Positions 1,645-49,936 of a DNA stretch of 64,000 nt are shown here, one piece after another. The stretch is from Martinezella rhizogenes (GTDB taxonomy: Bacteria > Pseudomonadota > Alphaproteobacteria > Rhizobiales > Rhizobiaceae), in assembly GCF_007002745.1 (NCBI RefSeq), contig NZ_SGNY01000001.1, positions 310,001-374,000 of the forward strand, written 5' to 3'. Under the pieces are notes generated by a model. That model did no database searches and had not been told where the DNA came from. It saw nothing but the letters and a program-made list of their open reading frames with translations. Every line of letters starts with the position of its first letter. The first letter of the stretch is position 1. Both the position numbers and the translations under genes were made by a program.

Positions 1645-1828
1645 GCGTGTCGCGGCCCCTGCCTCTTTCCATGTGTAATGGCCGAAGGCGCTGCTTTCGG
1701 ACCGACTGCTTGGATATTTGGGTGGAATGGTTTAATCCAGTTAAATAAACTCAATCCAGATAAGTCTGGCTAATGCGCTACACGTTATTCAACGGACAGA
1801 TCTCATGAGCGGTCTTCTCACCTCCATC

Positions 1829-1943
1829 CTCATTCCTGTGCTCGTCACAGGAATCCAGCCGACGTGCGTCTGCACGGCGAGGGAGCCCTTCCAGCCCAAC
1901 GGCTTGGGGTGGCTGGATTCCCGTGACAAACACAGGAATGAGG
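1829..1943. repeat. Palindromic intergenic repeat, family A, copy 1
   Basis: About 115 bp flanked by CTCATTCCTGTG and CACAGGAATGAG, with an internal hairpin (ATTCCTGTG...CACAGGAAT within the left arm) and a core ending in GGGCTGGATTC-like sequence. Near-identical copies occur at 28174-28290 and 49362-49477, and a mosaic relative at 21101-21211. It lies in the gap between the LysE exporter and its regulator. It resembles the mosaic RIME/ABC-type elements described from rhizobia; no coding function is evident. Confidence 0.85.
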
Positions 1944-28173: not shown

Positions 28174-28290
28174 CCTCATTCCTGTGCTTGTCACAGGAAT
28201 CCAGCCGACGCGCGTCGGCGCGGCGGGAAGAGTCTTTTCAGCCCAAGGACTTGGGCTGGCTGGATCCCTGTGACAAGCACAGGGATGAGG
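28174..28290. repeat. Palindromic intergenic repeat, family A, copy 2
   Basis: About 117 bp, nearly identical to the copy at 49362-49477 (shared core GAGTCTTTTCAGCCCAAGGA, then CTTGGGCTGGCTGGAT) and similar to 1829-1943. The outer arms CTCATTCCTGTG and CACAGGGATGAG are inverted repeats. It sits in the 257-bp gap before the GTA portal gene. Confidence 0.85.
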
Positions 28291-46852: not shown

Positions 46853-47361
46853 CCCGCAAACAGAAACGTCTGGCAATCATCGGCGGCGGCATGAGCTTCA
46901 TCGTTGCAGCCGTGCTGCTCGTCATGTTCGCTTTCGGCCAGTCCATCGCCTATTTTTACATGCCGGCCGATCTGGAAAAGACGCCCGTCAATCCCGGCAC
47001 CCGCATCCGCCTTGGTGGTCTGGTGGCGGAAGGTTCGATCAAGCGCGGCGAGGGCCGCACGGTGAGCTTCACCGTGACGGATGGCGAGGCCAATGTACCC
47101 GTCAGCTACACCGGCATCCTTCCCGATCTTTTCCGCGAAGGGCAGGGCGTCGTGACCGAGGGCGTGTTCGATGTCGCGACCCGTGGCTTCGTGGCTGACA
47201 GCGTGCTGGCCAAGCATGACGAGAATTACATGCCGAAGGAAGTGGCCGACCGGCTGAAGGACAAGGGCCTGTGGCAGCATGGCGGTGACGGCGAGAACCC
47301 CGCCGCCGCAACGCCATCGGCCGGTGCCGTCTCCACTGACAAGACCGGAGCGACAAAATGA
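46849..47361 (+). CDS. ccmE: Periplasmic haem chaperone CcmE (CycJ)
   Basis: A 170-residue protein with a basic N-terminal anchor ([20 protein letters not shown]), the OB-fold ([40 protein letters not shown]) and the haem-binding motif [14 protein letters not shown], in which the His (about residue 124) forms the covalent bond to haem. It passes haem to CcmF. A Pro/Ala-rich tail follows. It overlaps ccmI and ccmF. Confidence 0.96.
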
Positions 47362-49349
47362 TCAACGAGATCGGCCATTATGTTCTGGTTCTGGCGCTTG
47401 GCGTGGGGCTCATCGTCTCGACGCTGCCGGTCATCGGCGCGCGCCGCAACGACCGGGCACTGATGGATGTCGCCTCGCTTGGCTCCGTCATGATGTTCCT
47501 GCTGGTGGGTTTTTCCTTCGCGGCGCTGACGCGGGCCTATGCGGTCTCGGATTTCTCCGTGCGCAACGTCTGGGAAAACTCCCATTCGCTGATGCCTATG
47601 CTCTACAAGCTGACCGGCGTGTGGGGAAACCATGAAGGCTCCATGCTCCTCTGGCTGCTCATTCTGGTGTTTTTCAGCGCGCTCGTCGCCGCCTTCGGCC
47701 GCAACCTGCCGGAAACGCTCAAAGCCAATGTTCTGGCCGTACAGGCCTGGATTTCCGTCGCCTTCCTGCTGTTTATCCTGCTCACCTCCAATCCGTTTCT
47801 GCGTCTGTCACCGGTGCCGGCCGAGGGGCAGGACCTGAACCCCATCCTTCAGGATTTTGGCCTCGCCATCCACCCGCCGCTGCTTTACCTCGGTTATGTC
47901 GGCTTTTCGGTCTGCTTTTCCTTCGCCGTTGCGGCGCTTTTGGAAGGCCGCATCGACGCCGCCTGGGCGCGTTGGGTAAGGCCCTGGACGCTCGCCGCAT
48001 GGACTTTCCTGACCGCCGGCATCTCCATGGGCTCCTACTGGGCCTATTATGAACTCGGCTGGGGCGGCTGGTGGTTCTGGGATCCGGTGGAAAATGCCTC
48101 CTTCATGCCGTGGCTGGCTGGAACGGCACTTCTGCATTCGGCGCTCGTCATGGAAAAGCGCGAGGCACTGAAAATCTGGACCGTGCTTCTGGCGATCATG
48201 ACCTTCTCGCTGTCGCTGCTCGGCACCTTTCTCGTCCGCTCCGGCGTCTTGACCTCGGTGCATGCCTTCGCCACCGATCCGAGCCGCGGCATCTTCATCC
48301 TCGGTATTCTGACCATCTTCATCGGTGGAGCCTTAGCGCTCTTTGCATGGCGCGCGCCATCGCTGAAGGTCGGCGGCCTGTTTGCGCCGATCTCGCGCGA
48401 AGGGGCACTCGTCCTCAACAATCTCATTCTCACGGTCTCGACTGCCACGGTGCTGATCGGCACGCTCTATCCACTCATTTTGGAAACCCTGACGGGCGAA
48501 AAAATCTCGGTCGGTGCACCCTTCTTCAATCTCACCTTCGGCCTGCTGATGATCCCGATCCTGATCGTCACGCCGTTTGGGCCGATGCTGGCGTGGAAGC
48601 GCGGCGATCTTCTCGGCGCCTTCCAGCGGCTTTATGTGGCCGCCGCCATTGCAGCCCTTGCCGGGCTGACGCTCTGGTACGTGGAAAATGGCGGCCCGGT
48701 ACTGGCGGCACTCGGAATCGCCGCCGGTTTCTGGCTGATTTTCGGTGCGTTTGCCGATCTCTGGTATCGCGCCAATTTCGGCAAACTGGCCTTCGGCATC
48801 GCATTCCGCCGTCTGAAGGGCCTGCCGCGCTCTGCCTTCGGCACGGCCCTGGCACATATGGGCGTCGGCATTACCGTGCTCGGCATCGTCATCGTCACCA
48901 CCTATGAGACCGAAACCGTCCTGGAAATGAAACAGGGCATGGTGGCGGAAGCGGGCGGTTACAGCCTCACCTTTGATGGTATCCGCCACGCTGTCGGCCC
49001 CAACTTCACCGAGGATCGCGGCCATTTCACGGTGCGCAAGGCGGGGGTTGAGGTGGGCGACGTCTGGTCCTCGAAGCGGCTCTATACCGCGCGGCGCATG
49101 CCGACGACGGAAGCCGGTATTCTGACCTTCGGCCTCAGCCAGCTTTATGTCTCGCTGGGTGACCCGATGACCGATGGCGGCATGGTGGTGCGCATCTGGT
49201 GGAAACCCTTCATTCTGTGCATCTGGGGCGGCACGCTGTTCATGATGGTGGGCGGCTTCATCTCGCTGTCCGACAGGCGTTTGAGGGTGGGGGCACCAAA
49301 TCGCAAGGCGAAGCCAGTACGGGCGGCAATGCCGGAGGCGGCGGAATGA
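47358..49349 (+). CDS. ccmF: Haem lyase subunit CcmF (CycK)
   Basis: A 663-residue integral membrane protein with about 15 helices. The haem-handling WWD domain is [18 protein letters not shown] (about residues 235-252), and conserved histidines occur in [30 protein letters not shown] and [13 protein letters not shown]. CcmF with CcmH and CcmI attaches haem to CxxCH motifs of apocytochromes. Its TGA (47358 gene, stop 49347-49349) overlaps an ATG at 49346 in ATGA form, the normal coupling to ccmH. Confidence 0.97.
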
Positions 49350-49936
49350 GTGTGGCGCTTTCCTCATTCCTGTGCTTGTCACAGGAATCCAGTCGACGCG
49401 CGTCTGCGCGGCGGGAGAGTTTTTTCAGCCCAAGGACCTGGGCTGGCTGGATTCCTGTGACAAGCACAGGAATGAGGAAGATCGTGGCGGGGCTTACGCT
49501 TCTTCTCGCACTCCTGTTTGCCCCATGGCCCGCCTTCGCCTTCAACCCCGACGAGGTCCTTAAAGACCCCGTGCTGGAACAGCGCGCCCGCAACCTGACG
49601 TCTCAGCTGCGCTGCATGGTCTGCCAGAACCAGTCCATCGATGACAGCAACGCCGAGCTTGCGCGCGATTTGCGCGTTCTGGTGCGCGAGCGGCTGGTTC
49701 AGGGTGACAGCGACAAGGCCGTCATCGATTACGTCGTGTCGCGTTATGGCGAATTCGTGCTGTTGAAACCCCGCCTCAGCCTTCGCACCGTGCTTTTGTG
49801 GGGCGCACCCGTCGGCCTTACCCTTGCGGGCATTTTCGCCGTTTTCGTCTTTTCGCGCCGTCGTGCAACGCAGGAGCGGCCACAAAAACTGAGCGCGGAC
49901 GAAGAAGAGAGAATCCGTAATCTCATTGAAAAATAA
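49346..49936 (+). CDS. ccmH: CcmH (CycL), with a repeat element in frame at its 5' end
   Basis: CcmH reduces apocytochrome c cysteines for haem attachment. The recognised protein is 154 residues from ATG 49472: signal peptide [23 protein letters not shown], then the [10 protein letters not shown] motif (redox Cys pair), and a membrane helix ([20 protein letters not shown]) near the end. However, the ATG at 49346 that overlaps the ccmF stop (ATGA) has an ideal GGAGG seven bases upstream. It reads in frame through a family A palindromic repeat ([20 protein letters not shown]...VTSTG, 42 residues) into the signal peptide. Start 49472 has only a weak site, so the 42-residue extension is likely translated. 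The 3' end has a terminator. Confidence 0.9.
49362..49477. repeat. Palindromic repeat, family A, copy 3, inserted in frame in ccmH
   Basis: About 116 bp with arms CTCATTCCTGTGCTTGTCAC and GTGACAAGCACAGGAATGAG, nearly identical to the copy at 28174-28290. It lies between the coupled ccmH start (49346) and the ccmH signal peptide (49472) without introducing a stop or changing the frame. Confidence 0.88.

Follow-up and report, generated by a model that had tools for sequence, protein, structure and literature searches.

The 5' end of ccmH, where this gene overlaps the end of ccmF, very probably acts as a permissive landing pad for palindromic repeats. From the junction sequences compared here, we propose that ccmH would be started at an overlapping ATGA, that an inserted repeat would be translated as a longer n-region of the CcmH signal peptide, and that the added residues would be removed on export. 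The case in the window, by which we mean the whole stretch of 64,000 nucleotides from Martinezella rhizogenes, appears to be one instance of a pattern in which several repeat families occupy the same ccmH site in several genera.

The genes in the window are ordered ccmE, ccmF and ccmH. The two genes upstream of ccmH match the Pfam families CcmF and CcmE, and the CcmH domain (PF03918, E 5.7e-53) covers residues 54-193 of the 196-residue protein. The features are as follows, all on the + strand:

47358..49349, +, ccmF (cycK), an open reading frame with the Pfam domains CcmF_C and Cytochrom_C_asm, whose stop codon overlaps the ccmH start (ATGA)
49334..49338, +, GGAGG, ribosome-binding site of the ATGA start of ccmH, 7 nt from the ATG, read from the sequence
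49346..49349, +, ATGA overlap of the ccmF stop and the ccmH start, read from the sequence
49346..49936, +, ccmH (cycL), an open reading frame with the Pfam CcmH domain, including the repeat-encoded 42-residue N-terminal extension and the stop codon
49346..49471, +, the extension, 42 in-frame codons of mostly repeat DNA, from the translation
49360..49392, +, left arm of a perfect 33-nt inverted repeat, from arm comparison
49362..49477, +, family A palindromic repeat of 116 bp, bounds by BLAST, with the consensus ends CCTCATTCC and GG(A)ATGAGG
49447..49479, +, right arm of the perfect 33-nt inverted repeat, which holds the second ATG and is paired in the predicted RNA
49472..49474, +, second in-frame ATG, inside the repeat end, abutted by AGGA with no spacer
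49472..49540, +, core of the CcmH signal peptide (23 residues), from the translation, with the putative cleavage site after AFA placed by the Ala-X-Ala rule
1827..1943, +, full-length family A copy elsewhere in the window (genome match at 311827-311943)
28174..28290, +, full-length family A copy elsewhere in the window (genome match at 338174-338290)

A sequence-only reading of this DNA had described a 116-bp family A repeat between the ATGA overlap and the signal peptide, adding 42 codons with no stop and keeping the frame. Re-reading the sequence confirmed the repeat at the 5' end of ccmH and found GGAGG at 49334-49338, ATGA at 49346-49349 and the ATG at 49472 all where that reading had placed them. 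The ccmH frame (49346-49936, 196 aa) is free of stops and runs open from the repeat through the second ATG at 49472 and the signal peptide into the CcmH domain. The two ATG codons are 126 nt, or 42 codons, apart.

The palindromy of the window repeat is far beyond chance. Its two arms (49360-49392 and 49447-49479) are 100% complementary over 33 nt, and the predicted RNA hairpin reaches -106.5 kcal/mol (z -10.6, with none of 200 shuffles as good). A search for a known RNA family matched nothing but microRNA families, all of them scoring far under the gathering thresholds, and we rejected these as hairpin look-alikes. The source genome (G000) has at least 60 listed matches to family A, many of them the two strands of one palindrome, and 40 of 92 candidates were scored; 18 of the listed rows span the full length or nearly so, while others represent a core form of about 73 bp. 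Forty other repeat loci of this genome, corresponding to 39 copies (the best match of L240 is the same copy as L213), were scanned for open reading frames, scoring only those closed within the stretch taken. At 37 of the 40 loci no scored frame lies over the repeat, and the other three show weak overlaps (L003 and L232 among them), so family A is normally intergenic. We also considered other genic, in-frame family A copies among the listed rows of the genus, and discarded them as spurious because the ten longest stop-free frames carry no Pfam domain; the open reading frames overlapping these ten do so in 8 of 9 cases, with no overlapping frame found at L249, and the family A frame at L251 holds a stop; L252 was set aside. 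At L211 (1001-1116), a family A copy lies shortly upstream of the gene for a probable secreted protein; a start inside the repeat is possible there, but the more plausible start lies further on and has a signal-like sequence.

The junction is free of the insert in one genome of the same species, L014 (...GGCGGAATGAGG...). L014 matches the window with 98.3% identity in the final 600 nt of ccmF and with 97.2% over 390 nt of the mature part of ccmH, although the pair is not a clean single-event comparison, since signal-peptide residues differ between L006 and L014. The motif GGAATGAG stands at the end of ccmF (49343-49350) and again at the end of the repeat (49469-49476), so a deletion between the two copies would give an empty allele again. 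Gain and loss of the insert are therefore not always distinguishable, and some empty alleles may be secondary losses. As the motif belongs, by eye, to both the site and the element end, no clean target-site duplication is callable.

We collected 199 ccmF-ccmH loci, comprising 39 from the genus (the window's own included), 80 from named genomes and 80 from a family-wide draw, the latter being the best-scoring listed genomes outside the genus among 291 that bear ccmH. The sampled genomes include Agrobacterium and others, mostly Rhizobiaceae. Of these loci 197 were parsed, with L092 and L199 left out for lack of a ccmF match, yielding 178 distinct junctions, where near-identical junctions one base apart count as distinct. 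A junction was called filled when 130 nt or more separate the ccmH start from the AFA of the signal peptide. Forty-three of the 178 junctions are filled by this definition, with start-to-AFA distances of 147-324 nt, and the commonest value overall is 51 nt; 17 are of middle length (84-115 nt) and 118 are empty. The 105-nt leader of L042 (MTVRAHPTPWRSTGMLRR...), one of middle length, may hold a decayed repeat. With duplicates kept, filled junctions make up 15/39 in the genus, 27/79 in the named genomes and 6/79 in the family-wide draw, shares that are not unbiased frequencies because the genomes were sampled partially. Four of the 178 junctions (L118, L121, L172 and L203), all below the 130-nt threshold, are not clean in-frame overlaps. 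In L172, ccmF appears to be cut short by a stop that precedes an intact, empty ATGA start of ccmH; this locus looks mis-parsed on that account, and a ccmF frameshift or a sequencing error is possible.

For the sequence-only reading, an unrelated ccmH start in relatives without the repeat would have spoken against an extension. The comparison of junctions turned out otherwise, as insert-free ccmH begins at this overlap too (of the 118 empty junctions, 100 have ATGA and 12 have GTGA).

Clustering of the inserts at a 62% identity cut-off, with a shuffled maximum of 56%, produced nine types (three groups and six singletons), which differ in their translated text. In all 43 filled junctions, including all 31 outside family A, the insert has a length divisible by three and is stop-free, and none of the 43 has an out-of-frame length or a stop. 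The same insert DNA is open in 14/43 and 16/43 cases in the other two forward frames, and the corresponding Fisher p of 1e-14 for coding versus other frames would hold only for independent rows, whereas these rows are related. For family A the frame test is weaker, because a second + frame is also open in 10 of the 12 ccmH copies, because copies with a length divisible by three occur elsewhere (12/12 at ccmH versus 17/28 outside ccmH, two of the 28 being badly trimmed), and because the second ATG is constant. About a third of the listed family A copies, by hand count, have a stop in the coding frame.

How often the site has been filled was estimated on a ccmF tree of 176 of the 178 rows, the two with a short ccmF being left out. 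With equal costs, the filled or empty state requires at least 27 changes and the insert type at least 35. With losses almost free, the tree still calls for 15 or more gains or type switches, then together with 43 losses. A single gain is enough once insert types are disregarded and losses cost nothing, so the count of gains depends on how the types were clustered and on one gene tree; the existence of several insert types speaks against a single early gain. Fifteen or more gains at the ccmH site are probable, given this tree and these types, and a length divisible by three would arise by chance over 15 gains with a probability of (1/3)^15, or about 7e-8. In a tree of 40 family A copies, six ccmH copies fall into one starred clade and six lie among others. 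The ccmH label requires 5 changes on this tree versus a shuffled mean of 10.5, and none of 500 shuffles was as low. A single origin of the ccmH copies of family A appears in 0% of the bootstrap trees, and the starred branches are compatible with one. The family A copy of L006 sits in a loose group (support 82/0) that holds copies from its own genome and from others. Gene conversion could leave the same picture as separate insertions of family A.

The inserts lie in the n-region of the signal peptide, ahead of its hydrophobic core. The best hydrophobic 13-residue stretch has a median score of 0.71 in the extensions (maximum 1.88) versus 2.61 in the signal peptides (minimum 1.80). Net charge is positive in 42 of the 43 extensions, or in 41 by a slightly shorter stretch; we do not attribute this to selection for a positive extension, because the other frames are as charged (43/43 in frame +1). 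Cleavage by signal peptidase follows the Ala-X-Ala rule, from which we take the window CcmH to be cut after AFA. On the reading we favor, ribosomes ending ccmF would reinitiate at the overlapping ATGA with GGAGG in front of it and translate the inserted repeat in frame. The CcmH precursor would thereby receive a longer n-region, by 42 residues in the window, and signal peptidase would remove the extension together with the signal peptide, leaving the mature CcmH unchanged and the insert presumably neutral for CcmH function. We propose that such inserts survive at ccmH for this reason, and that inserts shifting the frame or bearing a stop are absent presumably because they abolish CcmH. The usual niche of the element at gene ends would here coincide with the start of a cleavable leader.

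An alternative is recurrent adaptation, in which a hairpin just after the ccmF stop is useful, for instance for mRNA stability or for a lower CcmH:CcmF ratio, and repeats were recruited for it. The folding of the inserts agrees with this view, with 40 of 43 at z < -3 against mononucleotide shuffles, although folding is expected of any palindromic repeat. The position is also suggestive. The ccmE-ccmF junction is a plain overlap in 112 of 136 scored loci, and among the same 136 a ccmE-ccmF spacer of at least 80 nt occurs in 4, versus a long ccmF-ccmH insert in 28; on the other hand, 118 of the 178 ccmF-ccmH junctions do without an insert.

The inserts also diverge slowly, which would fit a useful hairpin. 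Pooled over 27 between-species pairs from six hand-picked sets, including family A and L058/L059, pS is 0.125 in the extension, 0.428 in the signal peptide and 0.395 in mature ccmH, and pN is 0.073, 0.176 and 0.050, respectively. Slowly diverging inserts were seen at L036, L038, L041, L057, L062, L114, L125, L074, L078, L128 and L129. Late insertion can explain the low divergence of family A. It is not an easy explanation for two other sets, because their ccmH copies are closer across species (94% and 97% identical) than to the other copies scored in their own genomes, which reach 82% or less over long matches in one set and 94% over a 53-nt part but 79% over about 100 nt in the other (40 candidates scored per genome). 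In six of seven sets the predicted stems are less changed than the loops, clearly in Q (0.062 vs 0.294) and N2 (0.115 vs 0.261) and slightly in the others, and in N the two are equal. Summed over the seven sets, however, 65 of 97 stem substitutions break a pair and 32 keep it. Constraint on the hairpin is thus possible, with mixed evidence from these comparisons, and we regard recruitment for a useful hairpin as improbable. A combined view, in which the n-region is a true insertion hot spot where about nine types turned coding and the hairpin-forming extension was put to use, for instance in the output of CcmH relative to CcmF, seems a little less improbable, yet still unlikely.

The second alternative concerns the start codon. 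Of the 43 filled junctions, 42 retain the start-stop overlap (ATGA in 35, GTGA in 7), L057 having a TAATG overlap, and each of the 43 has at least one of six SD-like words, chosen loosely, ahead of the start. No ATG that leaves a leader of 15 residues or more is found within 120 nt in 21/43, and no ATG, GTG or TTG in 11/43. Three junctions (L062, L080 and L109) have no usable start between codon 2 and the signal peptide when 15-residue leaders are allowed, as against four without a later start under a strict distance rule; in these three the extension must be translated, provided that CcmH is made with a signal peptide from one of the usual start codons. The family A repeat might instead donate a start codon, its end (GGAATGAGG) supplying the working start at 49472 and the upstream frame being incidental. 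This would fit the second ATG kept in all 12 family A alleles, 111-153 nt from the first, and the start context of several empty alleles, which is the same GGAATGAGG as the repeat end. L090, of another insert type, likewise has an ATG that leaves a plausible leader of 18 residues, a length seen in one empty allele. However, the two ATG codons stay in one frame in 12/12 alleles, at distances of 111, 126, 129, 150 and 153 nt, and the frame is also kept in insert types without such an ATG (21 of the 43 filled junctions), for which reason we rejected the second ATG as the sole start. In addition, the ATG at 49472 and its AGGA lie inside the paired 33-nt arm without an SD spacer; the sequence-only reading had rightly seen a start made by the repeat end with a poor ribosome site, as AGGA touches the ATG. 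We consider start-codon donation improbable as well.

That reading had left the choice between an extension and a new start codon. The extension is favored, with 43/43 inserts in frame and open and 3/43 lacking a later start; the new start does not hold as the main reading, even though its ATG is present in 12/12 family A alleles. We infer that ccmH in the window is read mainly from 49346, and the ATG at 49472 could act as a minor start in family A alleles. That the extension reflects an annotation or assembly artefact, or a frame open by chance, is hardly credible: GC-rich repeats are often open-framed, and 10 of 12 family A alleles have two open forward frames, but the same junction structure recurs in many separate genomes and record sets, and a length divisible by three in 43/43 is not an effect of composition.

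Several known systems resemble the landing pad proposed here in part. Rickettsia palindromic elements (RPEs) are described as palindromic repeats of 105-146 bp that fall into several families and lie as in-frame fusions within conserved protein genes (PMC2229807, PMC10969869), and as spread over many unrelated genes, with 44 in R. conorii (PMC10969869). The family A repeat is similar in being a palindrome of about 100-150 bp in many copies, with a stop-free, in-frame insertion in a conserved protein gene at ccmH. It differs in that different families have repeatedly entered a single gene, at a stretch that cleavage probably removes. RPEs often lie inside the mature protein. No spread of family A over many unrelated genes was found among the copies examined, nearly all of which, other than those at ccmH, are intergenic. 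The comparison with Rickettsia drawn in the sequence-only reading is apt, but in-frame small palindromic or MITE elements are reported from enterobacteria and Neisseria too (PMC2229807), and reviews describe in-frame Correia fusions (PMC2229807, PMC2759123, PMC10969869). The enterobacterial elements RU-1 (ERIC), RU-2 (YPAL) and RU-3 are small and MITE-like, with open frames fused to genes (Delihas 2007; PMC2229807, PMC2759123), and one fusion of RU-2 makes up part of the signal peptide in a putative exported protein (PMC2229807). By the accounts in these sources, RU fusions are described locus by locus, in conserved and putative genes, whereas here one site of a respiratory assembly gene carries nine insert types and has an insert-free allele in the same species. 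Rhizobium-specific intergenic mosaic elements (RIME), together with the Sm-repeats and the AB and C motifs of Sinorhizobium, are repeated sequences of rhizobial genomes, with conserved secondary structure, and are described as intergenic (PMC2573895). Compared by that description, the family A copy at ccmH differs by lying in an open, conserved frame, while most other copies examined are intergenic. MITEs are short, with inverted terminal ends and many copies (PMC10969869); family A shares the shortness, the terminal inverted repeats and the copy number, but a clear target-site duplication was not seen by eye at the ccmH site. In the literature titles and abstracts searched, we found no report of repeats in ccmH or cycL or of a recurrent landing site in a signal peptide. 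In-frame palindromic repeats as such are already known; what seems new is the recurrent landing pad for several families in one signal peptide.

At the ccmH junction, nature has in effect run a replicated experiment on the making of protein from repeat DNA, confined to one short, probably discarded stretch of a conserved gene and with insert-free alleles available for comparison down to the same species. For annotation, it is a warning that in many rhizobia the true start of CcmH may precede the obvious signal peptide by tens of codons. More generally, the landing-pad model predicts that, in compact operons, mobile palindromes would find safe sites at gene starts that overlap the preceding gene and are followed by a cleavable signal peptide.
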